Origin: Piscinibacter sp. HJYY11
GTDB taxonomy: Bacteria > Pseudomonadota > Gammaproteobacteria > Burkholderiales > Burkholderiaceae_C
DNA: 64,000 bases
Assembly: GCF_016735515.1 (NCBI RefSeq)
Contig: NZ_JAERQZ010000001.1
Span: 3,646,746-3,710,745, forward strand
Direction: 5' to 3'
Shown: in pieces, positions 31,672 through 48,902 of the stretch
How positions within the stretch are numbered: the stretch's first letter is position 1
Layout: each line of letters opens with the position of its first letter
Program-made: the position numbers and the translations under genes
Notes under the pieces: model-generated
What the model saw: the letters and a program-made list of their open reading frames with translations, nothing else
What the model was told of the DNA's origin: nothing
Database searches by the model: none

Positions 31672-31819
31672 TCGATGTTGTGCTTCAGATAGCGCTGAAA
31701 AAGTGGTTGGTAGACCGTTGAGAGCGACAGGTGTTTGACAGCTCGACTCTGCAGAATCTCGCGTCGGGTGAGGTGAGGATCTTTGCTTCTTCCAAAGGAG
31801 CTTCGACTGCTGACCACAC

Positions 31820-32164: not shown

Positions 32165-32176
32165 CCGGGGTTCGAA

Positions 32177-33094: not shown

Positions 33095-33151
33095 CGCTCC
33101 TAGCGAGGCCCGCGCCGAGGGTGCAAGGTCCCCTTTCACGCACGGCGACGG

Positions 33152-33946
33152 CTACGCTGTCTCCACCGGCCGGATGGATTGCAGGTAATCGTGGAACGCT
33201 TCGGCCATCTGCCGAGCCGTGACCAGGTTTTTGCTCCAGAACGAAGCCAGAACAATCCATTCGGCGCTGAAAAGCTTGGATCGCAGCCAGTAGTGCAAGG
33301 GCGACATGCGAAATGGATTGCCCATCAGCCGCTGGCGCTCACGATCGATCTGCCACTCCAAGAATTTGAGGTTGAACACCTCTCCCCATACCTCGACATC
33401 TCCGCGGCGCAGGCCCATTGCCTCCTCCACGTTGTCGATCGGGTCCAGAAGGCGAGGTTCGCTTCTAAAGTTGGTAATCGGCCTGCTGTTTGCATCGAGC
33501 AGTTCGCGCACTTCGATCATGAGCGACTCGTACGGCTCGTCCGCGCAGTCGCCATGAAACTTCAAGTCGCGAAAGGGCAACCCGATGGGAGCCTGGATCG
33601 GCGTACTGCCGACGCCGTACAGCACGACGGCGATTTGGTGATGCACCTTGCTTCCCGTGCCGGTCACGGTCAGGACGACCTTGGAGAACAAATTGCCGTC
33701 CGTCGCCCTGATCCAGATCTGCGGTGATTGCTGGCGGCGAGCGAGGTAGTACTTGCCGAGGTGAAGGTCGAATTCGAGTCCCTTGGCGAGCCGCATTGGC
33801 CGCAGGCCAAGCCGCTGCCCATGGGAGTTGTAGACCGTCGAGATCAGGTACGCCTCTCGGAACAGAAACCTGCCGAGCGCGGTGAGGGGCTTCTTGAGCA
33901 AGCGTTTGAACAATCCAAAGATTCCCAGCGGAAAATCGAAGCTCAT
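33152..33946 (-). CDS. Hypothetical protein, 264 aa
   Basis: The ATG at 33946 is preferred to the one at 33973. The N-terminus (FDFPLGIFGLFKRLLKKPLTAL) is amphipathic with some membrane affinity; the middle (LEFDLHLGKYYLARRQQSP onward) looks like an all-beta domain similar in layout to immunoglobulin-like folds; the C-terminal third is helical (FLEWQIDRERQRLMGNPFRM). Not recognised. It lies just beyond tniQ on the same strand, 48 bases away, and may be the last gene of the transposition operon or cargo. Confidence 0.6.
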   Translation of the reverse strand: MSFDFPLGIFGLFKRLLKKPLTALGRFLFREAYLISTVYNSHGQRLGLRPMRLAKGLEFDLHLGKYYLARRQQSPQIWIRATDGNLFSKVVLTVTGTGSKVHHQIAVVLYGVGSTPIQAPIGLPFRDLKFHGDCADEPYESLMIEVRELLDANSRPITNFRSEPRLLDPIDNVEEAMGLRRGDVEVWGEVFNLKFLEWQIDRERQRLMGNPFRMSPLHYWLRSKLFSAEWIVLASFWSKNLVTARQMAEAFHDYLQSIRPVETA

Positions 33947-33993
33947 GATGGAAGCGTCGTGGTCGAGGTGCAATCAGCGTAACGACAACCGCG

Positions 33994-35595
33994 TCACTTG
34001 CAATCAACCCAAGGGTTGAGGCGGAACGGGGCGCTGTCGGGTGCCTCGCCGGCCGGCCAGGTGATCCAGTCCTGAAAGGCCGGAATCCGCCTGTCCATGT
34101 AGGCCAATTTCAACGCGTCGTTGTATCGCTTCCCAACCAGGCTCTTCGACATTTGACCCGTGGGGCTACTGCAGAGGAAGAGCCAGGGACTCAAGTCGGC
34201 GAGCCGATGTTTCGCCCGGTCCAGTCGCACATAGCGACGAAGATAGATCTTCAGATCGTCCCCGTCGCGAGGTGTGTCGTCCAACGGCTCATCGTCGATC
34301 TCAGACAAATAGTCCTCGACCTTCATCTCCCGCAGCGCACTCTGTGGCAGTTTGAGCAGCCGAGCGGTGAGGAACATCGTGCGATCCCGGATCAGTTCCT
34401 CACGCACGCGCCCGACCGATGTTGACGCCGCGATGTCGATGCCCGCGAGGAACATGTCGGCATCGTCCTGGGTGATGCGTGGCCTTTCGCGTGCTCGCAA
34501 TCGGCTCAGGTCGCGCCCGAACATCTCATGCGCGAGCGCATGGCTGAACCGCCCGTGATACGCCTCGACGACTGACTCGATGGAGCGGGCCTCATCCGAA
34601 GTGAGGTCTGTCTTGGACCGATTGAGCAGGCTGACCTCTTCGTCCACCCAGAAAGGCCTCACCGGCGAGTGACGCGTGAAATGCGAATAGATGTTGGGCC
34701 TTGAGCTGAAGGTGCTGTGGAAGGTCTTGGGCCAGTCGGCCAAAAGGCGCTGTACGCGGCTTAGAAGCATCGCACGCTGCTCTACGGGCATCTCATCAAA
34801 ACGACCGGCACCCGCAGGCTCTACACCGTCGGGTCCCGGCAAGCGTGCGCTCGCGAGCAACAAGACACGAAGGCCATTGAAGAAGAGCACCGAGTGAAGG
34901 CCGCTACGGCCTGCCACATCCACATGCCCGTCTCGGCGCGCCGTCTCCAACATGCGCTGAAGCGCCAGAACGTCGGGATCGGCTTTGCCGGGGCGGAGCT
35001 TTCGCAGGTCTTCGCCGCAGCACCAACAGGTTGCCATCGACACTTGGTCAGACAGCCAGTTGCGTTCCCGCATGTCGACGCGGTGCGGCTGCAACGTGGC
35101 GCCGCACAGGCAACGGTCAATCAACATCGTGCGGTGCCGAGTGCAACCCGTGACCCAGGACATGCGCCATGCCTTGCGGAAGTACGGTGTTTCATCGTCG
35201 GCGAGACATGTGGTGCAGCACATCAGGCCACCGCGCCGACGCTGGCGGTGGAACACACCAAGCGTCGTCAGCCAGGTCGTGAGTCCGCCGGTGGCCAACT
35301 CTGTGAAGACCGCTCCGACCAAGCTCCGAAGTGCTGTCTCCTCCAGCAGTTCGAGCGGTACGCCGGTTCGACGCGCCAGTTCCTGCGAGAGCTCAGGAGG
35401 TGCCAACCGGTCGATGTCGCGATTCCACAAAGGAAGAGAGTCGCGCCCAAACCAGTGACGATAGAAGCGCTGGACCTTCTTGCCATTGGCATGTGCCAGC
35501 CGAACCATCCAACTCGACAGGAGCTCATCGGGAAGTGGCCTGGGCCGGATCGGCCAAAGCGACAGCTGGTCCTCGTGGAAGGCTGTGACGCCCAT
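33994..35595 (-). CDS. tniQ: TniQ/TnsD-family target-selection protein
   Basis: 533 aa from ATG 35595, which begins one base after the stop of the preceding gene. The TniQ domain is at the N-terminus: LLSSWMVRLAHANG, then MCCTTCLADDETPYFRK with a CxxC, WVTGCTRHRTMLIDRCLCG with CxxH and CxC, and a second cluster CWCCGEDL. TniQ/TnsD proteins recognise the target and recruit the TnsC-type ATPase. As the last gene of a Tn6022-type module it is the likely reader of the comM site. Confidence 0.88.
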   Translation of the reverse strand: MGVTAFHEDQLSLWPIRPRPLPDELLSSWMVRLAHANGKKVQRFYRHWFGRDSLPLWNRDIDRLAPPELSQELARRTGVPLELLEETALRSLVGAVFTELATGGLTTWLTTLGVFHRQRRRGGLMCCTTCLADDETPYFRKAWRMSWVTGCTRHRTMLIDRCLCGATLQPHRVDMRERNWLSDQVSMATCWCCGEDLRKLRPGKADPDVLALQRMLETARRDGHVDVAGRSGLHSVLFFNGLRVLLLASARLPGPDGVEPAGAGRFDEMPVEQRAMLLSRVQRLLADWPKTFHSTFSSRPNIYSHFTRHSPVRPFWVDEEVSLLNRSKTDLTSDEARSIESVVEAYHGRFSHALAHEMFGRDLSRLRARERPRITQDDADMFLAGIDIAASTSVGRVREELIRDRTMFLTARLLKLPQSALREMKVEDYLSEIDDEPLDDTPRDGDDLKIYLRRYVRLDRAKHRLADLSPWLFLCSSPTGQMSKSLVGKRYNDALKLAYMDRRIPAFQDWITWPAGEAPDSAPFRLNPWVDCK

Positions 35596-35596
35596 C

Positions 35597-37327
35597 TCAG
35601 CCCACAAGCAGATCGTGCAGTTCTTGCACCGCGTCGCCCAAGCTCGCCGCATCGAAGCTCGCAGCCGGCGAGAGCCCTATGCGTCGTGGAGGTCCCACTG
35701 CAGGATCGCCGGTGCAGGCCGCAACGACAGCTCGGAGCGCCTCAACCTCGGAGATCGGAATCGACGGCCACACATGCACAACGTTCTGATCGGTAGGCGA
35801 CCAGGGGTGCAATGAGAGCAGTCCCGAGAGCCGTCCTTTCACCTGCAGGTTTGCAAACGATGCGAGCCGGCGGCAGCAGTCTCGGTCCACTGGACTAACC
35901 CGTATCCGCGTTTCTTCCAGCACCTCGCCTTCGTCAGTGACGATCTCGGGAAGCTGTGCCCAGTGGCTTCGAGCCTGACCGGGATGGATGCGCACGAAGC
36001 TCAACTTCTCGACCCAGGGCTCTCCGGCCAGGCGCGTCAACCACTGGAAGAACGGCGCCCAATCCTTGTCGGGGCACCGCAGGGTAGGTAGGCTCGGTCG
36101 GGCGTCAGGCTGCAGCGACAGGTCGAGCGGGCGTCCGGTGCCCCGGCCGGTGCCTTCGCCCGAACCATCCAGCGGTGAGGGCGGAAGCATACGCACCAGC
36201 ATCTGCGCCGGCGTTGCAATGTCGACGCGCCGCGCTGGTTTGTTGACCAGGTCCGGGAAGCGGACGTCTCGACCAAGGTAGACCGTCCGCGAGGCTGAGG
36301 CCTTGGATGGGTCCGCATTGCCAACTTGAGTCGGCTTGCCGCGAGAGCTGGCAACGCTTGGGTTTGCCCTGGCATCGCCAGGTTGCGCACCTTGCCAACC
36401 CGGCGCGGGCTTGGCTTTCGTGGTGCACGAGTAGCGCACGGACTGGAACGGGAACGGCGCCGCGCAGCTGAGAATTTCCTGAACGAGGAAGCGCTTAAGC
36501 CACTCGGGTCCCTGCAGCTCAACCCCTCGGACCCTGAGCGTTGTGCGTCCGGAGAACGGGAGGCGGGTCTGTGCGTATACCGGGTCTTTGCCCTGCGTCG
36601 CCACGGTGCCAGCCACCAGCGAGCGGCCAACCTGGGTGGCGCCTAGCCTGGCCTCCGGAGACAGGAGGATGCGTGCCACATCGTGCGCCGATGCAGCGCC
36701 GAGGTCGTGGGGCAGCCCGATGGTCAGGTGGCCTGCCATGAGGCTTTGCTCGGTCACCAGGCGGTCGGCGTCGAAGTTCGCCGAGAACAAGCGACGCAGC
36801 AAGCCCCCCGACGATCCAAAGTAGAAGCGGATGAGCTCAGTTGATGGAATGACGTAGCAGGTGGTGTCGACCCAGCCCGCCAGGCACGGCGCCTTGGTGT
36901 GCTCACGGTGGAACACGTGCGCTTCGTACGGCAGCATGAAGCCGTCATCGCCGAAGCGGTTCTGTGGCGTTGTGGCACCGGCAACGGTTTGCACGAAGTC
37001 CTTGGCGTCGAAGGATATCTCCCGCTCCTCACCCATCACTTGGTCTGTGACGACCTTGTTTCGCCACAGGGAGCCCACACGCGCGGCACACAGCTGCGAG
37101 ACTGTGAGCCGTATGGTCTCCAGTTCCTTCTCTCTCCCGGGCTCCGCGTTTTGCAGCACCACGCTGATGGTGGGTTGTCGGCTGGTAATGTGCCGCTCGT
37201 GGAAGGCCACGTCGCCCAGCCAGCGTATCCACCAGCTGCCGTTGGGCATGGCCGCGAAGCGGAATCCAGCCACCGGGTCGGGCGGAGCTGTCCGGCCTGG
37301 CGCCGTGTCGTTCGAGATGAACGCCAC
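35597..37327 (-). CDS. Unknown protein of the transposition module (TniD-position), 576 aa
   Basis: Start GTG 37327, two bases after the tniB stop; the open frame upstream is a shadow of tniB. No motif recognised. The first 280 residues are mixed alpha/beta (FRFAAMPNGSWWIRWLGDVAFHER near the start), then a Ser/Gly/Pro-rich linker, then a C-terminal domain. It occupies the place between tniB and tniQ that in Tn6022/AbaR elements, as I recall, holds tniD. Gene spacing of two bases and one base on either side shows strict co-transcription with the transposition genes, so it is probably required for transposition or targeting. Confidence 0.7.
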   Translation of the reverse strand: MAFISNDTAPGRTAPPDPVAGFRFAAMPNGSWWIRWLGDVAFHERHITSRQPTISVVLQNAEPGREKELETIRLTVSQLCAARVGSLWRNKVVTDQVMGEEREISFDAKDFVQTVAGATTPQNRFGDDGFMLPYEAHVFHREHTKAPCLAGWVDTTCYVIPSTELIRFYFGSSGGLLRRLFSANFDADRLVTEQSLMAGHLTIGLPHDLGAASAHDVARILLSPEARLGATQVGRSLVAGTVATQGKDPVYAQTRLPFSGRTTLRVRGVELQGPEWLKRFLVQEILSCAAPFPFQSVRYSCTTKAKPAPGWQGAQPGDARANPSVASSRGKPTQVGNADPSKASASRTVYLGRDVRFPDLVNKPARRVDIATPAQMLVRMLPPSPLDGSGEGTGRGTGRPLDLSLQPDARPSLPTLRCPDKDWAPFFQWLTRLAGEPWVEKLSFVRIHPGQARSHWAQLPEIVTDEGEVLEETRIRVSPVDRDCCRRLASFANLQVKGRLSGLLSLHPWSPTDQNVVHVWPSIPISEVEALRAVVAACTGDPAVGPPRRIGLSPAASFDAASLGDAVQELHDLLVG

Positions 37328-37329
37328 GG

Positions 37330-38211
37330 CTAGGCGCTCCGGCGTGAGTCGAACTTGCTCGACACGCGGTAGTTGCACTTCTCCAGCTCCACCAGCGTGA
37401 TCTTCTCGGTGGCGGTACGAATGGCGTAGGTGGCCGCCGCTTCGACCAGCGCGCAAGCTTCACCCAGGATGCCGCGCGTGCGGTGAAAGATGACGTCGGC
37501 AATCATCTTGTCGTGCAGGCCGGAGGCGTGCCGAAGCGGCAGCGTCTTCTCGATGCTCTTGAGCAGCCCCTGGAACTCCGGGCCTGACTTCCAGCGCGGC
37601 AGCTCGATGGGAACGAAGCGGTTCTCGAGCTGCGGATCGGAGGCGAAGGCGCGTTTCGCTTCCGGCGTGCCGACAGCAACGATCGGAATCTTGGTCTTCG
37701 TGCTGATGTGCTTGAGCGCAACCAGGCACTCGAGCAGCTTGAGTCGTGAGCCTGCGAGAAAGTCGTTGGACTCATCCAAAAGAATCAGCTTGGGCTGGAT
37801 GCGCCGTAGGACGGCGTACAGCTGTTCCCTGCGTTCCTCCGTTGTGTCTTTCGGGTCCACTTTCTCGAAAAGTGCCTCAAGGAGCGTGCGGTACATCGCC
37901 TTCTCGTTTGGCGACGTGACCTCAGCGATCAACACTGGCACCTTGACGCTTGCACCACTCAGATTCTGATCAGGAGGGTGGCGGCGCCCGAAGTGCTCGA
38001 TCAGGCTGCTCTTTCCGTTGTTCGACTCGGAGACGATGAGGCGGCATGGCGGGCGGGTCTTGGTGGGCCAGTTCATCAGCTCCTCGAGTTCATCGAGGAT
38101 GCGTTTGGCGGCCGGGTAGGTCACCCAGCGGTCGCCGCGGATGTGGGCTATGCGGACATCGTTCGCTTCGCCGAGCAGCTTCTCGGCCTTGGGGTCGAGG
38201 TTTCGGTCCAT
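37330..38211 (-). CDS. tniB: TniB/TnsC-type AAA+ ATPase of the transposon
   Basis: 293 aa. The P-loop reads LIVSESNNGKSS, in which the usual first Gly of GxxxxGKS is Ser; this is followed by the Walker B LILLDESNDFL and sensor-like AVGTPEAKRAF. TniB links the TniQ-bound target to the transposase and polymerises on DNA with ATP. It starts three bases after the tniA stop. The Ser at the first P-loop position is unusual but the rest of the loop is intact. Confidence 0.9.
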   Translation of the reverse strand: MDRNLDPKAEKLLGEANDVRIAHIRGDRWVTYPAAKRILDELEELMNWPTKTRPPCRLIVSESNNGKSSLIEHFGRRHPPDQNLSGASVKVPVLIAEVTSPNEKAMYRTLLEALFEKVDPKDTTEERREQLYAVLRRIQPKLILLDESNDFLAGSRLKLLECLVALKHISTKTKIPIVAVGTPEAKRAFASDPQLENRFVPIELPRWKSGPEFQGLLKSIEKTLPLRHASGLHDKMIADVIFHRTRGILGEACALVEAAATYAIRTATEKITLVELEKCNYRVSSKFDSRRSA

Positions 38212-38214
38212 GGA

Positions 38215-40086
38215 TTACATCGTCTCGATGTCGAAGTCCGGCACGTCATCGGCCTTGTCGGCCCAGTCGTTCCCTTGGAGCGACGGATTGGACGGCTGTT
38301 CGGACGGGCTGTGTGGGTCGTGCGCTGGGCGCTGCGAGGCCAGCTTCTGAGCGGTCTTACGCCGGCTACGGTTCTGGCGCTCCTTCGTTGTCGCCTTTGC
38401 GGAGGCATCCTCCCGGTTGCGCATGCGCTCGTAGCCCTCGAAGAGCACCGCCTCGTCGACCTGCCGGTTGGGGTCCAGCTTGAGCTCGCGCTTGACGGCC
38501 TCGAGCTCCCAGATGCTTATGGGCGGCCGCGTTCGGTCGCGATAGGGGATGAAGAAGTGCTCGCGCAAGTCAGGGTCGTAGAAGCGGATGCGGCTGATGT
38601 CGCGCGGGTCACGGGTAAAGATGAACTTGCGGTTCCTCTTTCGATCCTCCGGATCGACCGCGTTCACCCAGGGGCGCAGCACGTTGTCGAAGTAGTGGAT
38701 GCAATCGATCTCGACCCCCATCGGCGAGATCACACGCTCGAAGGGCTGCAGGAAGTCCCAGAGCAGTGTGTCCGCGTTGGGCATCGGCGCTGGCAGTCCA
38801 ATGCCTGGCACTTCATCGTCGCCGAGGATGTAGCGCTGGTAGAGCTTGATCGGCGGATAGCCGGTTTCGGAGTGCAGCTTGTGGTGATAGCGGTACGTGA
38901 TGAAGATGGTGAACCACTCCTCGCATTCCTCGAGGGTCATGATGGCCCGCTTCTTCGAGTCGTACTTCGCCTTCTGGATCGTGTTGGAGAACGTGGTGCC
39001 GGGTATCCGGTGCAGCGCCTGCATGAAGCTGCGGAAGGCTCTCTCGACGTGGCCAGCGTATTGCGGCAAGCCCTTGGGGCGGTTCTCGAGAATGATGTCG
39101 TGCTGCTCGCAGCCACGCTTGAGCGCCGAGCCTCGGAATTCCTTGGCGTTGTCGACGAACACCTTGCGCGGCTTGCCGTGGATCGGCCACGGTTGCGTCA
39201 GGTTGTGCTTCTTGATGAACTCGTCCTTGGGCAGCATGCCGTGAACGAGCGCCAGGGCGCAGTTCAGGTGCCCTGGTTTTTCCATCGTGATGCAAAAGCC
39301 CAGGAGCATGCGGGTGCAGACGTCGATCACGATGGTGAGAATCGGGCGCATCCAAGGCTCGCGGTTCTCGTCGAGGACAATCATGTCCATCGGTGTGTGA
39401 TCGATCTGCACCACCGCCAGTGGGAAATCGGCACCCGGGAAGTGGCCATGGATCGGCTCGTATTTGTGCCGAGCCTCGCGCGTGCCGTAGCGCTTGGCGT
39501 GCATCTTCCGTTTCGATTGCCTGTCCAGAAACTTGACGACGGTCGTCTTGCCCGGCGCCGGCAGGTTTGCCTTCGTGCAGCGGTACTTGATCTCGTCGTA
39601 GGTGGCAGTGGGCGATGGGCGCTCGGCCGTTGCGTAGAAGTCCTGGATCACCTCTTCGAGGATCTTCACAACTGCAGGCATCAGGCGCACGGAGCCTTTG
39701 TCGGTGCGTTCCTTGCGCATGAACGTCGACAGCTTCTCCGACGCCTTCCACTGCGCGATGTAGTTGTAGACCGTCGATCGAGACAGGCCGAGTTGCTTGG
39801 CCACCGCGTCGACATCCGCAGCCGTCTTGCAATGAGATTCCTTTTCCAGCAGGGGGCGAAGCAGCCGGAAGACGTCGACCGCGTCCCGCCACTGATCGGC
39901 GTTCTCGGCATGAATGAAGCGACTCGACTTCGCTTCGGCCACCTGGGTGACCTCGGACACCGGAGCGACGAACTTTTTGGTGCCGGTGTCGCGACGCACG
40001 ATCACCTCATCAAAACCAACGAGGTCTTCGACGACGAAGCGCTTCTTCTTCCAGAACACGAATGAGCCGGGAAGAAGGTTGTGCAT
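38215..40086 (-). CDS. tniA: TniA/TnsB transposase, DDE integrase family
   Basis: 623 aa. An HTH-like region (VAKQLGLSRSTVYNYIAQWK) at 95-114, then the DDE catalytic core: Asp229 (VVQIDHTPMD), Asp312 (KVFVDNAKEF) and Glu348 (GHVERAFRS), then the C-terminal Mu-type domain and a Ser/Gln-rich basic tail that probably contacts TniB. It joins the 3' ends of the element to the target. With a TnsA-type nuclease upstream, cut-and-paste rather than replicative transposition is likely. Confidence 0.93.
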   Translation of the reverse strand: MHNLLPGSFVFWKKKRFVVEDLVGFDEVIVRRDTGTKKFVAPVSEVTQVAEAKSSRFIHAENADQWRDAVDVFRLLRPLLEKESHCKTAADVDAVAKQLGLSRSTVYNYIAQWKASEKLSTFMRKERTDKGSVRLMPAVVKILEEVIQDFYATAERPSPTATYDEIKYRCTKANLPAPGKTTVVKFLDRQSKRKMHAKRYGTREARHKYEPIHGHFPGADFPLAVVQIDHTPMDMIVLDENREPWMRPILTIVIDVCTRMLLGFCITMEKPGHLNCALALVHGMLPKDEFIKKHNLTQPWPIHGKPRKVFVDNAKEFRGSALKRGCEQHDIILENRPKGLPQYAGHVERAFRSFMQALHRIPGTTFSNTIQKAKYDSKKRAIMTLEECEEWFTIFITYRYHHKLHSETGYPPIKLYQRYILGDDEVPGIGLPAPMPNADTLLWDFLQPFERVISPMGVEIDCIHYFDNVLRPWVNAVDPEDRKRNRKFIFTRDPRDISRIRFYDPDLREHFFIPYRDRTRPPISIWELEAVKRELKLDPNRQVDEAVLFEGYERMRNREDASAKATTKERQNRSRRKTAQKLASQRPAHDPHSPSEQPSNPSLQGNDWADKADDVPDFDIETM

Positions 40087-40087
40087 C

Positions 40088-40774
40088 TCAGGCAGCCAGG
40101 CTGATTGGGATGGCCATGTTGATCGGCCTGTCCCAGTCGATCGACAGCTGTCGAAGCGCCAGAAGGCGCCACATCACCGGGATCACCGCAACCGGTTCCA
40201 CACCGCGCGTGGCCGCGGTGGCGACGATGTCTTTGGCGAGGAGCGGGCCAGACCGCAGGGCCTGCAGGATTCGCTTCTCGATGTCCGGCTGGGCAGGCCA
40301 GTGCAGGTAGCCGTGCAGAAACTTGACGGCCTTGAGCTTGGGGACGCGAATGTGCACCTCGGTCAGGACGTAGAAGTCCCAGCCTCGTGCTTCAGCGTAT
40401 GCCTGAGCGGCCCGCAGCTTCGGGCGTAGCTCGCGCCACTGCCGGTCAAACTCTTCGCGATACTTGACTTCGACGAGCCACGGTCTTTCGCTCTTCCAAA
40501 CGATGAAGGCGTCGAGCGTATATGTCTGGCCCTGCCCATAAGGAATGGTGACTGGCTGGTCGTCAAGGCGTTCGTAGTCCGGCTCGTCACGAACCAGCTC
40601 CATCAAGTCACGCTCAAGCGATGACTCGTAGCGCCGCGAATTTGGCATGTTGCCGGTGATGCTTCGGCACTGGATGCCAAACCTCCGTGTCGGGCCGAGT
40701 CGTTTGAGCTCGGTCTTCATCGTTCGGTCTGTACTTGCGCGCGCATTCTTATACGGCGCGCCGTCCAGACTCAT
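40088..40774 (-). CDS. tnsA: TnsA-type endonuclease of the transposon
   Basis: 228 aa (a start at 40720 is an alternative). TnsA N-terminal nuclease fold: SITGNMPNSRRYESSLERDL carries the first Glu, TLDAF the Asp (D88) and LVEVKYREEF the E-x-K pair (E102, K104). The C-terminal 70 residues are a helical/HTH part. It cuts the 5' strands at the element ends and works with TniA. In Tn6022-type elements the matching gene is tniC. First gene of the minus-strand module; an ACCCCTA/TAGGGGT inverted repeat lies just upstream. Confidence 0.88.
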   Translation of the reverse strand: MSLDGAPYKNARASTDRTMKTELKRLGPTRRFGIQCRSITGNMPNSRRYESSLERDLMELVRDEPDYERLDDQPVTIPYGQGQTYTLDAFIVWKSERPWLVEVKYREEFDRQWRELRPKLRAAQAYAEARGWDFYVLTEVHIRVPKLKAVKFLHGYLHWPAQPDIEKRILQALRSGPLLAKDIVATAATRGVEPVAVIPVMWRLLALRQLSIDWDRPINMAIPISLAA

Positions 40775-40783
40775 TCCGCAGCT

Positions 40784-40801
40784 ACCCCTAGGGTTAGGGG
40801 T
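40784..40801. promoter_or_regulatory. Inverted repeat upstream of the transposition operon
   Basis: ACCCCTA (40784-40790), GGGT, TAGGGGT (40795-40801), 10 bases above the tnsA start. It may be an operator or mRNA hairpin limiting transposase expression. Inference. Confidence 0.35.
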
Positions 40802-40917
40802 GCCAAACGTCTAGCCAGTTATCAGCGCGTTGAACGTGGCTTTCTGCCGAGGCCCCGCCAATTTCCGTTGTCTGCCTGTCTTTCCAGCGATACGATGAAC
40901 TGCATAGGGAGGATCCC

Positions 40918-41730
40918 GTGAAGAACGAGAACAACGGGGGTGCCGGCACCGTCGCGGTGTACTGGGACTTCGAGAATCTTCATGCCGGCGTGCTGGAGGC
41001 CCGCTACGGTGAAGGTGCCTACGCCAAACCGGACAATCGCTTCAGGCCCCAAGAGGCCGTCGTGGATGTCCAGGCGCTCGTTGAACTCGCCTCATCCTTC
41101 GGGCCTGTGGCCATCAACCGGGCTTACGGCAACTGGCAGTACTTTGGCCGCTACCGCGACGCTCTCCTCCAAAGCGCGGTCGAACTGATCCAACTCTTCC
41201 CGCCAGGGCCGTCGGCTAAGAACGGAGCAGATATCAAGCTGTGCCTAGATGCGACCGAAGACATTGGCCGCTTTGAGCACGTGAGCACGGTCATCATCAT
41301 TGGCGGTGACAGCGACTTCATGCCAGTGGCGCAGAAGGTGAAAGCAGCTGGACGCACCCTCATCGGGATCGGAAACCGCAAGAACACCAACAAACACTGG
41401 GCCAAGAGCTGCCACGAATTTCGCTACTACGAAAGTGTGGTGGACGCGGAGACCGTTGCCGAAGGGCCTCTCTTCGCTGACAAGACGGCCCCTCCGCCAC
41501 CGCCAGACCCAGCCGCCGAGATCCTGCGACGGGCACTGCATCTGCTATCAGAGTCGAAAGGCGAACCTTGGGTTAACAAGGCCAACGTTTGGCCACTGAT
41601 AAAACGCCTCGATCCGACGTTTGATCCCAAGGACCACGGGCACGCCAGCTTTGCCGAAATGGTCAAGGCGTTCGAGAACCTGGTCGAGGTGAGGAAGGGT
41701 GACAAAGACCACTTTCTGCGATTGCGGTGA
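40918..41730 (+). CDS. NYN nuclease with C-terminal OST-HTH/LOTUS domain
   Basis: GTG 40918 behind GGGAGGA; 270 aa. The NYN part shows VAVYWDFENLH, GADIKLCLDATED and VIIIGGDSDFMPVAQK with the metal-binding Asp residues. The C-terminal 70 residues (ILRRALHLLSESKGEPW to HFLRLR) have the OST-HTH/LOTUS RNA-binding layout, including LIKRLDPTFDPKDHGHASF. The pair of domains makes an RNase guided by its own RNA-binding module. It diverges from tnsA and is the second NYN gene flanking the transposition module. Confidence 0.88.
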   Translation: MKNENNGGAGTVAVYWDFENLHAGVLEARYGEGAYAKPDNRFRPQEAVVDVQALVELASSFGPVAINRAYGNWQYFGRYRDALLQSAVELIQLFPPGPSAKNGADIKLCLDATEDIGRFEHVSTVIIIGGDSDFMPVAQKVKAAGRTLIGIGNRKNTNKHWAKSCHEFRYYESVVDAETVAEGPLFADKTAPPPPPDPAAEILRRALHLLSESKGEPWVNKANVWPLIKRLDPTFDPKDHGHASFAEMVKAFENLVEVRKGDKDHFLRLR

Positions 41731-41787
41731 CAACCATGGGTCGCTGGTGTGAGGCACCTGAGGAATCTCAGCGGAGGGTATGGGGAG

Positions 41788-42228
41788 ATGGCAGAACTCG
41801 ATCCAAAGATCGATATCTTCGACAAGAATTCTTGCGGCCCGATAGTCACAAAGGTGGCTCTGGGTGTGGCGGTATTGCTGTTTGCACTAACCATCGCACT
41901 GACCATCGGCGCTTTCAGATGCGGTGGACCACGTTGGGGAAGCGTCGTCGCGGCGCTTGCCTTGGCTTGGGCGGTCGGCGCACCTGCATGGTTCTGGTTC
42001 GAGTACTTTTTTCTCTATCGCATTTACGGCACACCTGGGAGCTTCGAGCTCTACAAGCACGGTCAGCAATTGTCCGTTGCAGTCTGGGCCGGCTTAGCTC
42101 TTTCCCTCGGAGCCTTCGCAAGCAGTGATCGCTTTAAGCAGCCGGAAACCAATGCAGCCGCCACAGGGGCGGCGGCGCTGCGAGCAGCCTCAGGCGTAGC
42201 AAATGCAAAGCCTCAGGCGTCCAAGTGA
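41788..42228 (+). CDS. Small membrane protein, unknown
   Basis: The ATG at 41788, with GGGGAG before it, gives 146 aa. Hydrophobic segments: VALGVAVLLFALTIALTIGAF, VVAALALAWAVGAPAWFWFEYFF and LSVAVWAGLALSLGAFA, i.e. three membrane spans, followed by an Ala-rich tail. Not recognised. It lies 57 bases after the NYN-OST-HTH gene on the same strand and may form an operon with it. Confidence 0.65.
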   Translation: MAELDPKIDIFDKNSCGPIVTKVALGVAVLLFALTIALTIGAFRCGGPRWGSVVAALALAWAVGAPAWFWFEYFFLYRIYGTPGSFELYKHGQQLSVAVWAGLALSLGAFASSDRFKQPETNAAATGAAALRAASGVANAKPQASK

Positions 42229-42284
42229 TCGCGCAAGCCCGACTCGACTAGTACTAAGCACAGTACCTCCTGGACTACTTCTCT

Positions 42285-42725
42285 ATGACGCTCAGACGGC
42301 TCAAGCTTTCCATGCATCGCGATCACGCTATGGAAGCGACGAGAGTGTCCATTGGCAAGTCAAAGTTGGTTTACGTCCTGGTCGCAGACAAGAAGCTACG
42401 GTATGAATGGGGAAAGTCACGTATTGCCTATATCGGGACGACCAAGAAGGGCACGGCCCGAATAGCTCAAAGCGTCGCGGCCCGAGCGGAAGCGATCCTC
42501 GGCATCCGCGGAGTGCGTTCCTTTCACGCGCGAGTTATCACCTGTCGGCCGCGCCGGAACGTCAAGACTTGGCACCAACTCGAGCGAGCCCTGCTGCTCA
42601 AGTTCAAAGAGATGTTTGGACAGGTCCCGCTGTGTAATACCCAAGGAAAGCGCATGCGTCGCTCGAAGGAGTTCAACTACTTCGCAGAGAACGGTGTGCA
42701 ACTCATGATTGAAGAGCTTTCCTAG
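42285..42725 (+). CDS. GIY-YIG nuclease-like protein
   Basis: 146 aa. KLVYVLVADKK, RIAYIGTTKKG (the VYVL/AYIG pair of a GIY-YIG fold), then a conserved basic stretch, TWHQLERALLLKF with the catalytic-type Glu, and LCNTQGK with Asn. All main positions are present. It would nick or cut DNA at a target set by its partner. The gene stops 29 bases before the next start on the same strand, suggesting an operon with the restriction-endonuclease-like gene. Confidence 0.7.
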   Translation: MTLRRLKLSMHRDHAMEATRVSIGKSKLVYVLVADKKLRYEWGKSRIAYIGTTKKGTARIAQSVAARAEAILGIRGVRSFHARVITCRPRRNVKTWHQLERALLLKFKEMFGQVPLCNTQGKRMRRSKEFNYFAENGVQLMIEELS

Positions 42726-42753
42726 CCGGCCACACCCCTTCGAATTCGAGCGC

Positions 42754-44040
42754 ATGAATCAAGAACTGATTGCTCTCCATGTCAGGAATTTCATCGAAAC
42801 GTATCCCGCCGCGGAGAAAGACGCAGCGTGGCGTGAGTTGACCCAGCGGTTTCGCTGGTTCTGGAAAGGACGCGTCCTCCAAGCGGACGGCCAACCTCTT
42901 TCAGACGCCGAATGCGATGAAGTGATCCGTACGCTGGATCGCAACGCCAAAGGGAACACCAAGGCGAGCGAGGCGGTGGCGAAGGCGATGGTCCCTCAGG
43001 GAGCTTGGCGCCGCATGCTGAACGAGTTCCACACTAACGCGACACTGGGTGGACTGATGGACCGTGTACTCTCTGAAACCGACGCCAGCTCAAAAGCCCG
43101 TCTGATCGACGAGCTGTACATCGCCAACGCCGGGCAGAAAAACAACCTGACCGGTCCCAGCGGAAATGCTATCGGAGCCTACCTTGCTGCGTTCGACCCG
43201 GTCGCAAACCTGTCGATCATTTCGCTTAAGGATCGCCGAGCCATCATCGACTACTTCGGCTTCGTGAACGAGATCGACTGGGATGGCCCATCAATCGGTC
43301 ACCGAATCGTCGAAAGCAACCGCGTGATCATCGAAGGCAGCAAGTCCTTTGGTCTCACAGGATCGGCTCGCACGATTTCGCGCTTCTACTACCAGGCGGA
43401 GGTCAAGGCGCTCTGGCGTGGTGAGCATTCCGTCCGGCTGCCCGGCCGAACCGTGAGTGTTGCAGTACCACCCGTGACTGATGAGCTCGAGGAGGCGCCG
43501 GCAGACTCGGAAGTCGTTCGTGAATCTATGCAGGTGCAGGGGCTGCTCGCGCGCATCGGCACGATGATGAACTTCTCGATCTGGTTGCCGAAGGCGGACA
43601 GAAGCCGTGTGCTGAAGGTGTGGAAGCCTGAGCCTGGCGAGCTGATCGACGAGCTGCCGTTGGGATACGACCCGTCCACGATTAAGACCATCGAGCAGAT
43701 TGACGTGTTGTGGTTGCGCAAGCGGAGCATCGTTCGAGCGTTCGAGGTAGAGCACACCACATCCGTCTATTCCGGTCTGCTACGGATGGCGGACCTGGTG
43801 GCCCTTCAGCCCAACATCAACATCAAGCTTCACATCGTGGCGCCGGCAGATCGCCAAGAGAAGGTGCTGCAGGAGATTCGCCGTCCCGTTTTCTCATTGC
43901 TGGAAGGCCGCGAACTTGCTCAGATGTGCACCTTCCTCTCATACGACAGCATCCGCGAGATCGGTGAGTTGAAGCACCTCGAGCACCTGTCCGACAAGAT
44001 TCTCGAGGAGTACCAGGACATTGCCGGAACGGATCATTAA
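42754..44040 (+). CDS. Restriction-endonuclease-like protein, defence candidate
   Basis: The start at 42754 gives 428 aa; the frame extends upstream to 42709 without need. The first 260 residues are helical (LIDELYIANAGQKNNLTG in the middle). The C-terminal part resembles PD-(D/E)XK-type domains: IDVLWLRKRSIVRAFEVEHTT (D, then E-V-E), SGLLRMADLVALQPN, and KLHIVAPADRQEKVLQE, RPVFSLL. The E-x-K Lys is replaced by Glu, a known kind of variation. Together with the GIY-YIG gene it may make a two-nuclease restriction module. No methyltransferase gene is present. Confidence 0.55.
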   Translation: MNQELIALHVRNFIETYPAAEKDAAWRELTQRFRWFWKGRVLQADGQPLSDAECDEVIRTLDRNAKGNTKASEAVAKAMVPQGAWRRMLNEFHTNATLGGLMDRVLSETDASSKARLIDELYIANAGQKNNLTGPSGNAIGAYLAAFDPVANLSIISLKDRRAIIDYFGFVNEIDWDGPSIGHRIVESNRVIIEGSKSFGLTGSARTISRFYYQAEVKALWRGEHSVRLPGRTVSVAVPPVTDELEEAPADSEVVRESMQVQGLLARIGTMMNFSIWLPKADRSRVLKVWKPEPGELIDELPLGYDPSTIKTIEQIDVLWLRKRSIVRAFEVEHTTSVYSGLLRMADLVALQPNINIKLHIVAPADRQEKVLQEIRRPVFSLLEGRELAQMCTFLSYDSIREIGELKHLEHLSDKILEEYQDIAGTDH

Positions 44041-44090
44041 ACGGTCGCTTCCGGTCCTTCGACCTCTGCGCGGCCGAACCTGTTGCTCAC

Positions 44091-46688
44091 TCACAGCCCA
44101 ACGCTGATTCCGATCTCGTTAGCGATCGGGGTGTAGATGTCGACGTCTGACTCTGCTAGCACGTTCAGTGACAGCACCAGCGCGTATCGGACTTTCCAAT
44201 CAGCTCCAATTCCGTTTCCCATGTCCTTCCACCATCCGCCCACGGGAAACACTGCCAGCTCGGACTTATTTGCCAGGTCAGTTGCGAGTCCAGTCCAGGT
44301 ATCGCAATGCAAGGAACCTCGAGAGCGAACGTTGTAGCGAAGAAGCCAGGCGTCGCTGTCCGGTTCCGGCATTGATTCTTCGACGCCTTCTTCCTCGCGG
44401 TCGATCTTGTTGATTCGTTGATGGAACTGTTGGCTACTTTCCGCTGCGCCTCGGACCGAGAAGCGCAGACCATGGCTTTGATATCTGAACTTGCTCCTCC
44501 ACCCTCGTCGACTGGGGTTGGGCTGCACGAAGTATGAGAGAGTGACTTTCAGCTCAACGGGCATCTCGCCAAGTGCCAGTAGTTGTGCCTTGGGCCACGG
44601 CAACTCGTGGATGTTCACTTTCCCAAGGCGCGTACCGCTGCCGCTCTTGGCCTTGGTGCCGTTGTTCTGTGTGCCATTGGACTTTTTGCTCTGTGCCTTC
44701 GTATAGGCAATCAGTTCTTCCTGCAGGACCAGGGTCGGCCGTTTAAGTGTGGAATTAAGCGAGGCGTCGAGCGACACCTTGCCAAAGCCGAAGCGTCGCA
44801 CCAGAGAGTCGCGTGCCAACTGCTTGGATTGCCTACTGATCCCTTGCATCATCACTGGCGTGTATTGCGCGCCATTGACAACGAGTGCACGGATCGTCTC
44901 TGGCCACAGCTGCGGATACCGGGCATGGACATGGGCGCAGATGCGAGCAACTTCGGCAGCCGCGCCACTTGTATCCCCGGACTCGGTTAGCAGTCCCACA
45001 GCTGGATTGTGCGAGGTCGTGAGCAGTCGAAGGTCCTCGGGTCCACGAACGACTGAGTCGGTCGATCGCGCGTCCCTGCACCCATTGCCACCCTCAGCAA
45101 CCACGTCGGGTTTGTTAGGCCATGACCTCGACCAGCTGACCGACGTCCGAGACGAAGGTGCTAGCCCTCCTTGAGGGGCTATCGCTGTTAGGCCTGGCCA
45201 CTTTCCCTTGTTGAAATCAACTTGCTGCGTGCATGCACCCACCGAAATGGCATTCCAGGCTTGCGCGGGATCTTCGATCGTCTGCAGGTCGTTGTTCTCA
45301 GGGTACTTGTGCCACTGATCCCAGTGGATGTTGCCGGCGGAAAGTACGAAGAGGCGCGGCCTGAGTTGCGGGAAGCCGCTGGCCGATACCGGAGGCAGAT
45401 CGAATTGATTGATGCTGTCGCCCGTCAAACCGAATGCCAGCCTGTCCACTGTTGCCGACCATTCGCTGGGCATACCGGCCGTGGCTCCGTACGCTGTTGT
45501 CATCATCGCGAAGGTGCGGCGGCGCTCAGCATTTGATTCTTCGACTTTCTGCGCAGCTGAGTTCATTACCCAGCCGTATAGCCGGGCGGGATTTGTACCT
45601 TGCGGCGGCCAAATCTTGATCGACTCCAGTCGATGGCCGATTCGGACTACCTCTTTGGAAGAGAGGGGCCCGCGAAGATCTCCATGTATTGCGAGCCCGG
45701 CCATTTCGGTGCCGTGACCGTCGTGGTCATGGCTCTCCCACTCGTCCATCACAGAATGAAGGTCGCTGCTTGCTATTGCGGCGTCGAGTAGGGGGTGGTG
45801 GCGGTTTACGCCTGTGTCGAGCAAGGTGACAAAGGGCGTGCTTTCGCTGAGTTCATCTGCCTCAACGCGCGCCGCTAGATCTTTGACCCAATCCGCCAAT
45901 TCATAGGGCTTTAGTTCGCTGAGGAAGTATTCAGCCGATGGCGAGGTGCCGCGGATCTCTGCAACGTCTTCGAGCAAGTCAAGGGATTGCTGGAGCTGCG
46001 ACCTTGTTGAGTGGACGAGTACGACGACGCGGCCAGGGAAGCACACGTATCCCTCATCAAGAGGAATTTCCAAGCGGGCTGCCTGTTTTGCGAAGGCAGC
46101 GAATGTTTCCTTCGCCGTCCTCGCTCCTTGACGAAGCCAGACTTGAAACGCTTGCTGGTTTTCTGACGCTGGCGCTTCATCTGTCCAGAGTTCATCGAAC
46201 ACGGCACGCTGGAAGGAGATGATCGCGTTGATTAGGTTGGCGTGCTTCGGGCGAGGCGCTTTGCCCGGCTTCGGGATACTGTCTTCTGCGATGTACGCCT
46301 GAACCCTTCGCTGGAAAGCCGTTAGCTTTCCCTGCGGCACATATACGCTGACCAGCTCTGTGTTGCTGGTGGACGGTCGGACACTCAGTACCTCGATGTC
46401 ATCACGTTTCCACTCGAGCGCAGCGAAGTTCAAGCAGCCGGGTGGCGAAACCTCAAGCGTGATCGCGACTCCGCCCGGATCCAGCAAACCAGCCTTGGCC
46501 CTGAGGGCGTGCAAGTTCTGAACCTCAACGCCAAGCTTCTGAAGCTGGGCCATGAGGCGCTTCCCGTGCTGATGCCGGTTTCGATCTGGGGGGAGGGTTG
46601 GCCTAGCGCCCGAGCGCGGTGATTCGAAGTCTTGTGGGTCGGTGTAACCGCGAACGAATAGGTGGTCCAGCTCAAGCGGCATACGCAC
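44091..46688 (-). CDS. ietS: Subtilisin-like S8 protease, IetS
   Basis: 865 aa. The catalytic triad is complete: Asp291 (VTLLDTGVNRHHP), His325 (DHDGHGTEMAGLA) and Ser574 (SGDTSGAAAEVAR), with oxyanion Asn453 (LSAGNIHW). No signal peptide, so it works in the cytoplasm. A 280-residue N-terminal domain and a 250-residue C-terminal domain frame the protease. With the AAA ATPase IetA encoded 64 bases upstream it forms the IetAS pair, reported as a plasmid addiction system and as an antiphage system. Substrate unknown; IetA probably restrains or feeds the protease. Confidence 0.9.
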   Translation of the reverse strand: MRMPLELDHLFVRGYTDPQDFESPRSGARPTLPPDRNRHQHGKRLMAQLQKLGVEVQNLHALRAKAGLLDPGGVAITLEVSPPGCLNFAALEWKRDDIEVLSVRPSTSNTELVSVYVPQGKLTAFQRRVQAYIAEDSIPKPGKAPRPKHANLINAIISFQRAVFDELWTDEAPASENQQAFQVWLRQGARTAKETFAAFAKQAARLEIPLDEGYVCFPGRVVVLVHSTRSQLQQSLDLLEDVAEIRGTSPSAEYFLSELKPYELADWVKDLAARVEADELSESTPFVTLLDTGVNRHHPLLDAAIASSDLHSVMDEWESHDHDGHGTEMAGLAIHGDLRGPLSSKEVVRIGHRLESIKIWPPQGTNPARLYGWVMNSAAQKVEESNAERRRTFAMMTTAYGATAGMPSEWSATVDRLAFGLTGDSINQFDLPPVSASGFPQLRPRLFVLSAGNIHWDQWHKYPENNDLQTIEDPAQAWNAISVGACTQQVDFNKGKWPGLTAIAPQGGLAPSSRTSVSWSRSWPNKPDVVAEGGNGCRDARSTDSVVRGPEDLRLLTTSHNPAVGLLTESGDTSGAAAEVARICAHVHARYPQLWPETIRALVVNGAQYTPVMMQGISRQSKQLARDSLVRRFGFGKVSLDASLNSTLKRPTLVLQEELIAYTKAQSKKSNGTQNNGTKAKSGSGTRLGKVNIHELPWPKAQLLALGEMPVELKVTLSYFVQPNPSRRGWRSKFRYQSHGLRFSVRGAAESSQQFHQRINKIDREEEGVEESMPEPDSDAWLLRYNVRSRGSLHCDTWTGLATDLANKSELAVFPVGGWWKDMGNGIGADWKVRYALVLSLNVLAESDVDIYTPIANEIGISVGL

Positions 46689-46752
46689 GGGTATTTTGTT
46701 AGGACCCGCGCAAACTATCTCAAATGTGGCGCTTCGTCATCAGTGACAGGGA

Positions 46753-47739
46753 TTAGAGGAGCTGCTTTTGACCAGCAGCCCGCTCGTGGAGATGAATGCG
46801 CACTCGCTCCGCATCCACAAAATCACGACCATCCAGCACCGCATCCTTCATTGCGTCAGCGCAAGCCTTGACGATGTCCGAGTGCGACAAGCCGAGGCCC
46901 TCGCGCACGAGGCCGCCGTAGTCAAAACTGGCGGGCGCCAACAGGGACAAGCTGTTCCTCAACAGAAGGCTCACCTGAACCTCGTCTGGCAAGTCGTAGC
47001 GGATCACGTCATCGAATCGCCGAAACAGGGCGCTATCCAGCGCGGCGCCGTGGTTGGTCGCCGCGACGATAAGGCTGTCCGACGAATCCTGCTCGATCAG
47101 CTGCAGGAACATGTTGAGCGTCCGACGCATCTCTGCCACGTCGTGTTGGCTGCCCCGTTGCAGGCCAAGCGAGTCGAACTCGTCGAAGAGGTACACACCG
47201 CGCGTCGACTTAAGCGCGTCGAAAACGAGCCGCAACTTTGAAGCGCTTTCACCCATGAACTTCGTGATCAACGAATCAAAGCGAGCGACGAAAAGAGGCA
47301 GCCGCAACTCGGTGGCCATGACGCTTGCGGTGAGCGTCTTACCGGTACCAGGCGGCCCGACAAGAAGCAGCTTGCGACGTGCGCTCAACCCGTGGCCGAG
47401 CAGCGTTTCGTGATGGCGCTGTTCTTTCAGGACCCGCTCCAGACGGGTCGTGACCGATTCGCCGACCACCATGGCGGATAGATGCTGCTGCGGGTACTGG
47501 ACAGTCAGCAACTCGGCCAATTCGCCTCTAGGCTGAGCCAGTGGAACGGCGCGAGACTTCGCACGGGGAGACGACGGCGTCCGGGCCTTTTCAATGAGGT
47601 CCCGCATCTCAGCGGCCACCTTTACGTGTCCGCGATTTGCCTCGTGAGCCGCTACTTGCAGTGCGACTGCAAGGAAATGCTCGTCTTGGTTGGTGACGAA
47701 TGCGCGCAGCAGTTCGGTGACTTGGGTTGCGCTTGCCAT
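46753..47739 (-). CDS. ietA: AAA+ ATPase, IetA
   Basis: 328 aa. N-terminal helical part HFLAVALQVAAHEANRGHV, then Walker A GPPGTGKT (128-135), Walker B VYLFDEFDSL, sensor 1 ending AATNHG, and RRFDDVI. Partner of IetS. Very similar in full length to the lone ATPase at 5499-6497. The gene starts 47 bases from two palindromic operators shared with the divergent XRE gene. Confidence 0.9.
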   Translation of the reverse strand: MASATQVTELLRAFVTNQDEHFLAVALQVAAHEANRGHVKVAAEMRDLIEKARTPSSPRAKSRAVPLAQPRGELAELLTVQYPQQHLSAMVVGESVTTRLERVLKEQRHHETLLGHGLSARRKLLLVGPPGTGKTLTASVMATELRLPLFVARFDSLITKFMGESASKLRLVFDALKSTRGVYLFDEFDSLGLQRGSQHDVAEMRRTLNMFLQLIEQDSSDSLIVAATNHGAALDSALFRRFDDVIRYDLPDEVQVSLLLRNSLSLLAPASFDYGGLVREGLGLSHSDIVKACADAMKDAVLDGRDFVDAERVRIHLHERAAGQKQLL

Positions 47740-47786
47740 GAATGCCTCTCGCGGATGGTAGGCCGCAACTGGGCCGTTGAAGGGTC

Positions 47787-47820
47787 GTGCTACTGTATCA
47801 CAACCGTGCTACAGTAGCAC
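47787..47820. promoter_or_regulatory. Two palindromic operators between ietA and its XRE regulator
   Basis: GTGCTAC-T-GTATCAC (47787-47801, one mismatch to a perfect palindrome) and GTGCTAC-A-GTAGCAC (47806-47820, perfect) have centres 19 bases apart, about two helical turns. The second ends 5 bases before the XRE start, so the regulator should shut off its own gene and probably ietAS. Confidence 0.75.
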
Positions 47821-47825
47821 GGCAG

Positions 47826-48107
47826 ATGAGATACCCGACGTCCCAAAAAGAGTTGCTGAGCGAGGTGCGGGGAGACCGCACCAAGACTGACTTCGCCGAG
47901 GAGCTGGGCATTGATCGAAGTACTCTGAGCAGGTATGAAAGCGAGGAACTGGGCGCTTCGACCAAGGTCCTGAACTACTGCTTGCGTGCGATAGCAGCAC
48001 GCAGCGGGCAGACTGGCGAGGGTGAGTCTCTGGGCACCGTCGCTCAAGCGCTGAGCCTGACAAAAAGAGCTGTCGGCCTTCTTGAGCAAGCGGCAGCAAA
48101 GAACTAG
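47826..48107 (+). CDS. XRE-family regulator of the ietAS locus
   Basis: ATG 47826 gives 93 aa. Residues 5-60 form a Cro/C1 HTH: KELLSEVRGDRTKTDFAEEL, then GIDRSTLSRYESEELGAS. A short helical tail follows. It is divergent from ietA, and two palindromes lie in the shared promoter. No ribosome-binding site of strength precedes the start, and the operator is almost at it, suggesting tight self-repression. It is the last gene before the element's terminus. Confidence 0.85.
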   Translation: MRYPTSQKELLSEVRGDRTKTDFAEELGIDRSTLSRYESEELGASTKVLNYCLRAIAARSGQTGEGESLGTVAQALSLTKRAVGLLEQAAAKN

Positions 48108-48189
48108 CCCGGAGCACTGAACGAGCAGATTTCCATCAGAAACTGCGTCAGGCAACAGTCTTGTCGAATTGCTTTGAGCGGCATATGAG

Positions 48190-48250
48190 AGTGCCAATCA
48201 GGCACTTTTAAGGCTGATATTCCGGGTTTAAGGCGATCTTCCGGAATACA
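48190..48250 (+). repeat. Right terminus of the Tn7-like element with tandem transposase-binding-type repeats
   Basis: TTTAAGGCTGATATTCCGG (48207-48225) is followed by TTTAAGGCGATCTTCCGG (48227-48244), two near-identical repeats of 19 and 18 bases with a 20-base period, as TnsB-type sites are arranged. A hairpin AGTGCC/GGCACT (48190-48206) precedes them. The terminal AATACA ends at 48250; the opposite strand starts TGTATTCCGG. Confidence 0.7.
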
Positions 48251-48255
48251 GCGAG
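48251..48255. repeat. Predicted 5-base target-site duplication
   Basis: GCGAG directly outside the ACA terminus. Tn7-like elements duplicate 5 bases. The matching copy before the left end lies outside the window, so this is a prediction. Confidence 0.35.
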
Positions 48256-48902
48256 GTCCTTCAGAGATCTCGCTGGCGCACCACGGCGTTCTGTTTCTCG
48301 ACGAGTTGCCCGAGTTCCCGAGGGCCGCGCTCGAGGCTTTGCGCGAACCGATGGAGACCGGCCGCGTCACCATCTCGCGCGCCGCGCGGCAGGCCGAGTA
48401 CCCGGCGGCGTTTCAGCTCCTGGCCGCGATGAATCCGTGCCCCTGTGGCCACCTCGGCAGCCCGCTGAGGGCTTGCCGCTGCTCGCCCGACGTGGTGTTG
48501 CGCTACCAGGGCCGGCTCAGCGGCCCCTTGCTCGACCGCATCGACCTGCAGATCGAAGTGCCCGCCGTCGCACCCGACACTCTCTCATCGGCTCCCGATG
48601 GTGAAGCGAGCGCGCAGGTGGCCGAGCGTGTGCAGTCGGCCCGCGGCGTGGCGCTGTCGCGCCAGGGCTGCGCCAACGCGCGCCTGGCCGGCTCGGCCAT
48701 CGACGAGCATTGCGCGCTGGGCGCCGCGGAGACGCGTTTCCTGCAAGGCGCCTCGGCGCGGCTGGGCTGGTCGGCGCGCAGCTACCACCGGGTGCTGCGG
48801 GTGGCACGCACCGTGGCCGACCTCGCGGCCAGCCGGTCGATCGAGGTGGCGCACCTGGCCGAAGCGATCCAGTACCGGCGGCTCTTCGCCGCGCCGGCCT
48901 GA
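48256..48902 (+). pseudogene. comM: comM/yifB, 3' part (interrupted by the island)
   Basis: The frame gives EISLAHHGVLFLDELPEF (48264 onward; Walker B), REPMETGRVTISRAARQAEY, AAMNPCPCGHLG, LDRIDLQIEVP and the Mg-chelatase-related C-terminal domain with SARSYHRVLRVART, ending AEAIQYRRLFAAPA. This is about the C-terminal 213 residues of a protein that is normally about 500 aa. ComM is a hexameric branch-migration helicase that helps natural transformation. The N-terminal domain and Walker A are missing; sequence left of 48251 is the transposon. The remaining frame has no start of its own, so the gene is broken unless the island excises. Confidence 0.93.

Follow-up and report, generated by a model that had tools for sequence, protein, structure and literature searches.

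The locus analysed here raises the question of how a comM gene came to be cut in two by a large island, and which protein of that island found the gene. The window, that is, the whole stretch of 64,000 nucleotides of Piscinibacter sp. HJYY11 DNA under analysis, corresponds to C1:3646746-3710745 (contig NZ_JAERQZ010000001.1), and the studied site is the right junction of the island in comM. A preliminary description of the sequence had proposed a Tn7-like element in comM; TnsA, TnsB, TnsC/TniB and TniQ are indeed present and the gene is split. We consider it probable that the element entered comM by Tn7-like cut-and-paste insertion, its target most likely having been found by a TniQ protein with a fused recombinase-like domain.

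Tn7-like insertion into comM as such is already known, mechanism included (Faure et al., 2023; PMC10293859; excerpts of this and of the other articles cited were used). The element Tn6022 uses TnsF, a dead relative of tyrosine recombinases, to target comM near the Walker B codons, and the C-terminal helix of its TniQ is predicted to contact the partial CAT domain of TnsF (PMC10293859). Islands of the AbaR type often lie between comM bases 835 and 836 (PMC8767349), and in A. baumannii low transformation goes along with the loss of comM through such islands (PMC11472951). In the excerpt of PMC3384475, "comm" stood for "pers. comm." and not for comM.

The 5.62-Mb genome was searched with the ComM family, and two complementary pieces were returned, C1:3640542-3641426 (model positions 1-292) and C1:3694988-3695623 (283-499). 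A complete comM elsewhere, which had been named beforehand as the finding that would overturn the proposal, was not found by this search, the only other matches being two weak ones of 21.2 and 20.1 bits. The gene is arranged as a 5′ part (nt 1-896), an element of 53,586 bp and a 3′ part (48264..48902, plus strand), with both parts in frame. The 3′ part begins at the codons E-I-S-L-A and has no internal stop, so the abrupt in-frame start noted to the right of the island was borne out; the bounds given for it (48251-48264) bracket the true boundary at 48263/48264, but the junction itself had been misplaced. Full-length comM is present in 9 of the 11 genus genomes searched (own included), and the flanks and both halves of the split gene align to those loci. 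Comparison with the uninterrupted genes of two of these congeners, L022 and L025, established the interruption and at the same time corrected its boundary to a GAGAT duplication.

At the left junction, the genome sequence reads 5′ comM ...CGGCCGGGCGAGAT, then TGATTGAAACC, and at the right junction ...CGGAATACAGCGAGGTCCTTCA, then GAGATCTCGCTGG, while the empty site in L022 and L025 is GGGCGAG/ATCTCG (longer stretch CCGGGCGAGATCTCGCT). With GAGAT as the 5-bp target duplication (right copy 48264..48268, plus strand, letters rechecked; left copy L005:2919-2923, outside the window), the element reads TGATTG...CCTTCA, with the right terminus ...GGTCCTTCA. It extends from window coordinate -5322, outside the window (C1:3641423, L005:2924), to 48263, its in-window part being 1..48263 (no strand). 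The TG..CA ends and the 5-bp duplication are those of a Tn7-like element, and this is the sole reading found that leaves no bases over. Spacing was taken as the distance between the HH codons and the GVLFLDEL (Walker B) codons, adding the two flanks and subtracting one duplication; the spliced flanks gave 78 nt, identical to 4 of 4 intact congeners measured. The terminal bases vary among such elements (TGT, TGG, TGA), and therefore element boundaries are best set by restoring the spacing of the empty site.

The right end of the element (48206..48263, minus strand) reads TGAAGGACCTCGCTGTATTCCGGA... and contains two tandem candidate TnsB sites of 19 and 18 bp (CGGAATATCAGCCTTAAAA / CGGAAGATCGCCTTAAAC, minus strand) at 48206-48243, the same two 18/19-base repeats that had been reported to precede comM. 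Compared with these two clear copies, the left end has only weak counterparts, CAGAAT / CGGAATAT. A terminal inverted repeat was not supported, as the local alignment score of the two ends was not significant and was reached in 70 of 300 shuffles. The idea of a second transposon nested inside, with a right end of its own near tnsA, was discarded, the gap between tnsA and the NYN nuclease gene (40775-40917) showing no obvious repeat array by eye.

The minus strand carries the transposition genes tnsA, tnsB and tnsC/tniB, followed by a gene for a 576-aa protein and by tniQ, and TnsA, TnsB, TnsC and TniQ together are a Tn7-like gene set. In detail, the TnsA endonuclease (40088..40774; PF08722, 1.2e-13), the 623-aa TnsB transposase (38215..40086; Mu-transpos_C, 8.7e-5, above its cut-off) and the TnsC/TniB ATPase (37330..38211; PF05621, 6.6e-58) precede the 576-aa protein (35597..37327, minus strand), a candidate TnsE-like second target selector. 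This protein had no Pfam match, and a PDB sequence search gave one irrelevant match (E 0.71) and none that was credible. It was labelled TnsE-like because its homologues in two comM elements, G300 (E 1.2e-9) and G379 (4.6e-55), sit opposite the tns strand, as the tnsE of Tn6022 does; the position of these two homologues is the evidence for the label, and in the present element the gene lies on the tns strand, between tnsC and tniQ. The protein may thus be a TnsE. Downstream of tniQ lies a 273-aa open reading frame (ORF; 33152..33973, minus strand) with no family match.

The 533-aa TniQ (33994..35595, minus strand; PF06527) consists of a TniQ part (residues 13-369) and a tail, residues 373-524, that resembles the catalytic domain of tyrosine recombinases, as judged from a XerD match, hhalign, and an AlphaFold2 model aligned to PDB structures. 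The tail was analysed with alignment A1, composed of the 43 best TniQ matches (120 of 351 matches were listed, and 42 relatives of similar length were among the matches listed). Three relatives encoded on metagenome contigs, P0002-P0004, have a TniQ that is 66-80% identical. Tyrosine recombinases catalyse with Arg I and the HxxR-H box. Neither HxLRH nor HxFRH was found in any of the 43 aligned C-termini, the Arg I column holds P in this TniQ and R in 2 of the 43 sequences, and the hhalign match of the tail ends before the HxxR-H box, so the tail looks like a degenerate copy. VIA alignments of the same recombinase chains were stronger than the plain Foldseek result given below. No description of a TniQ fused to a CAT domain was found in the excerpts of PMC10293859, PMC3384475, PMC11472951, PMC8649781 and PMC8767349 (open-licence PMC literature). 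Among plasmids, 273 records matched the long TniQ, and 0 of 72,556 covered 80% of its length; no relatives were confirmed in genome contigs with the TnsB and TnsE-like alignments or in viral contigs with the TniQ alignment.

TnsF was not detected in the element with one query, a 486-aa neighbour of tniQ in genome G214 that was named TnsF by its size, place and Cys-rich start and not by comparison with the published sequence (best E 0.67). None of the 8 PF00589 matches in the whole genome lies inside the element. The tail was also rejected as a TnsF by sequence, with an hhalign probability of 0.1% against the same query. TnsF was, further, not seen in the stretches read of four other comM elements with a long TniQ, G473, G410, G494 and G379 (15 kb each of about 47, 27 and 33 kb for the first three, and 19.1 kb of G379).

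The element resembles the Tn6022/AbaR backbone (TnsABC, TniQ, TnsF and TnsE) in TnsA, TnsB, TnsC and TniQ, in a comM target near Walker B, in a target duplication, possibly in a TnsE, and in the link between target choice and the fold of a dead tyrosine recombinase; insertion in comM is itself a mark of the Tn6022 family. However, the TniQ of Tn6022 is short (369 aa) and shares an operon with TnsF (498 aa), whereas here a 533-aa TniQ carries the recombinase-like domain and no TnsF was detected. The TnsE-like gene sits between tnsC and tniQ in the orientation of the tns genes, while the Tn6022 tnsE has the opposite one; the insertion is about 23 bp nearer Walker B than the commonest site among 13 relatives with resolved junctions; and 7.5 kb of cargo separates tnsA from the right end. 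A TniQ-TnsF fusion, SCZ64694, known from one case, likewise joins TniQ to recombinase-derived sequence, but is described as lacking a whole CAT domain and having an extra CB-like domain, while here a CAT-like fold directly follows the TniQ core (Faure et al., 2023). Tsy elements, tyrosine-recombinase transposons with an active TnsF found, e.g., in Zoogloea, also enter comM through a recombinase-fold protein; they have no Tn7 genes and need catalysis and a YRec, in contrast to the present element, which has Tn7 genes, no PF00589 match inside it, and is not a Tsy (PMC10293859). Tn7 itself (TnsABC+D or TnsABC+E) shares the core genes and two kinds of selector, but its TnsD tail is multi-HTH and its target is glmS. 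Zoogloea is a betaproteobacterium.

On this basis, a Tn7-like transposon with TnsA, TnsB, TnsC, TniQ and possibly TnsE most likely entered comM by cut-and-paste just 5′ of the codons for Walker B, the ATP-hydrolysis motif, with its tnsA side toward the 3′ part of the gene, duplicating GAGAT and splitting comM. Residues 13-369 of TniQ are predicted to form the usual TnsC-adaptor fold, and the tail, devoid of catalytic residues, would bind and read the conserved Walker B coding region of comM directly; the fused TniQ would then pass the site to TnsC, so that one polypeptide would do the job that TniQ and TnsF share in Tn6022. The fused domain thus most likely replaces TnsF as the comM reader. 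The published comM selector is a separate protein, TnsF. As a bolder proposal, to which we give slightly less than an even chance, a tyrosine recombinase may have been captured a second time as a comM reader, independently of TnsF, with a killed catalytic domain fused to the TniQ C-terminus reading the Walker B codons, and in this clade the insertion point may have moved by about two helical turns. A self-sufficient TniQ with a fused dead recombinase domain would show that site-specific recombinases have served more than once as modules for building target selectors, and a simpler four-protein system would insert at one conserved chromosomal site.

Insertions of this kind were then compared among relatives. 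TnsB matches were found in 51 of 250 family genomes and TniQ matches (E 1e-20) in 19 of 399 order genomes, own included in both. ComM was searched in 41 genomes, namely the strongest 25 of the 50 non-own TnsB-positive ones and all 18 non-own TniQ-positive ones, two being shared. In 18 of these 41, picked for their tns matches, a comM 5′ piece ends at model positions 282-288 (in G224 alongside an intact comM, and in G219 and G480 divided in two), indicating that Tn7-like comM insertion is ordinary in this group. The preliminary description had suggested that the same target in a betaproteobacterium extends the known picture; the target is comM, but the novelty was overstated, since comM targeting is published and common in related genomes. 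The named homologues in the list of TniQ relatives (Acidovorax, Comamonas, Massilia, Polynucleobacter) fit a betaproteobacterial host. That description had overlooked that the TniQ is unusual and that the insertion point is shifted.

Junctions were called with a script requiring TG..CA and a perfect 5-bp repeat, in 17 relatives with both junctions and in the own genome; G516 (right side only), G224 (left only) and G158 (cut elsewhere) were left out. It resolved 13 of the 17 relatives, and gave none for G433, G121, G486 and G480, whose left breaks were, by eye, at the usual site (G433 seemingly ends TC..GA). Most of the junctions fall on the LVGGG codons, the duplications include GGCGG, GCGGT and GTGGC, and the spacing was 78 nt in 12 of the 13 (84 in G596). 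For AbaR islands the duplication is given as ACCGC, unconfirmed here (0 occurrences in the text of PMC8767349). The insertion in Piscinibacter sp. HJYY11 is about 23 bp, or two helical turns, closer to the Walker B codons than the commonest site among the 13. A "GA" at nt 23-24 occurs in 17 of 26 relative ends, is thus not universal, and was not relied on.

Several alternatives were weighed. That the insertion is an ordinary Tn6022-type one, with its terminus at the ACA of 48248..48250 (plus strand), a GCGAG duplication and later small changes blurring both junctions, is very improbable. ACA, taken as the terminus in the preliminary description, is followed by GCGAG at 48251-48255, comM has GCGAG at the same place, and TGT stands at both ends in 10 of the 13 resolved relatives. 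However, this ACA lies 13 bp inside the true right end, and the ends are TGA..TCA, not TGT..ACA. Upstream, the predicted 5′ comM fragment exists, but in place of GCGAG and then a TGT end with TGTATTCCGG-like sequence, the left side shows ATTGATTG after GCGAG. On the right, this boundary leaves 11 extra bases (GTCCTTCAGAG) before ATCTCG, which are unexplained because empty comM runs from GCGAG straight into ATCTCG, and GCGAGTGT was not found in the element. The GAGAT boundary leaves nothing over and restores the 78-nt spacing, and other ends than TGT do exist in relatives (TGG at both ends in G494 and G310, TGA at the right end in G014). It is also rather unlikely, if less so than the others, that comM was found by some other selector that went unrecognised, be it the 576-aa TnsE-like protein, the 273-aa ORF or a protein of the host, and that the TniQ tail is purely structural. 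Loci with a short TniQ and no identifiable selector are reported (Faure et al., 2023; PMC10293859), and a long-TniQ comM locus, G379, does carry the TnsE-like protein; yet neither this protein nor the 273-aa ORF had a match in 15-kb stretches of three other long-TniQ comM loci (L127-L129), where the tail is present, and the reported role of TnsE is to steer insertion towards replication forks (PMC10293859). The fused TniQ remains the favoured reader, with several points weighing against it. Plain Foldseek on the whole TniQ model ranked TniQ chains first (best E 9.2e-4), with recombinases no better than E 1.2-7.7; as all three tests of the tail start from alignment A1, they are not independent; a mode of binding shared with TnsF is unproven, since the tail has no sequence similarity to the TnsF query; and the shifted insertion position was seen in this one element only. 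G232, the only other of 399 genomes with a long-TniQ match at E 1e-55 (element C7:119683-123936, L030), has no ComM match at E 1e-15, although listed as 100% complete, and no comM fragment in 40 kb, so its target was not placed. Two further elements, G300 (366-aa TniQ) and G460 (350-aa), sit in comM with no TnsF in the stretches read; the fused-tail model leaves them unexplained, and another, unseen reader is therefore possible.

Whether transposition took place in this lineage was also considered, as the element could have come with an already split comM through homologous recombination, a route that we regard as improbable. Against the three nearest congeners (L022-L024), the comM halves show 82-86% identity, compared with 88-90% for about 1.47 kb of upstream and 92-96% for about 0.87 kb of downstream sequence. 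The intact congeners L022 and L024, however, diverge from each other in comM to the same degree (84% and 86%), although the two remaining pairs among the three reach 87-92%. The ends and duplication are a transposition product wherever it happened. Both comM parts are open in frame without stops, and the dN/dS of this comM against L022-L024 was 0.09-0.13, compared with a slightly lower 0.04-0.10 among those intact congeners; relaxed selection on the split gene was therefore not supported, and the insertion looks young. The predicted product of the 5′ part is a ComM that stops after PRPGEID, before Walker B, and the structure of the gene therefore argues for a loss of ComM function, which would impair transformation in the host.

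Further comM breaks were noted when 35 genomes with weak or multiple ComM matches, part of a longer list, were re-examined. No second element at the position found here was seen by eye in 10 further genomes: G688 and G691 carry the break at the usual Tn7 site; in G648, G243, G030, G125, G751 and G743 it lies more to the 3′ side, within the Walker B codons or beyond them; G647 stops at contig ends; and G062 is uncut in the stretch shown. Five of them (L146-L155; G243, G030, G125, G751, G743) have comM split at a third site, within the Walker B/DEL-PE codons. TTAGGT directly follows the left break in four of the five, and CACCTAATGCCC stands on the right side in three; these look like insertions of a different, recombinase-type element. 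In other genomes, further ComM breaks lie around model positions 59-72 and at about 348. In G300 (L130), tniQ is followed by three ORFs of 397, 404 and 614 aa in place of tnsF, which by eye look like a HerA/NurA-like defence cargo operon.

Cargo lies on both sides of the tns genes, with about 38 kb to the left of them and 7.5 kb separating tnsA from the right end (about 3 kb likewise lies between tnsA and comM in the G379 element), and family matches agreed with the large metabolic and defence cargo described earlier. The metabolic, transport and signalling part (8047..30487) includes an Old-Yellow-Enzyme-type oxidoreductase, pirin, LysR and the isocitrate/isopropylmalate dehydrogenase family, together with TctC/TctA transport, two-component systems, a porin, a chemoreceptor and a periplasmic binding protein. 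Between tnsA and the right end, the cargo comprises the defence AAA ATPase IetA (46753..47739, minus strand; PDLC02196, 5.2e-67) and its partner, the S8 subtilase IetS (44091..46688, minus strand; PF00082, 3.2e-50; PDLC02198, 4.1e-32), along with a restriction-endonuclease-like protein (42709..44040, plus strand; PDLC03534, 1.6e-12; no Pfam match) and a NYN nuclease with an OST-HTH/LOTUS domain (40918..41730, plus strand). The latter and a second NYN-domain nuclease (32177-33094) flank the tns genes. A second IetA-like AAA ATPase was found at 5499-6497, on the opposite side of the cargo (PDLC02196, 4.6e-74), with no S8 subtilase partner among the neighbours scanned. Upstream of the iet genes, at the start of a divergent HTH ORF, a near-perfect inverted repeat (47786-47821; 16-nt arms, 94%) is probably an operator.
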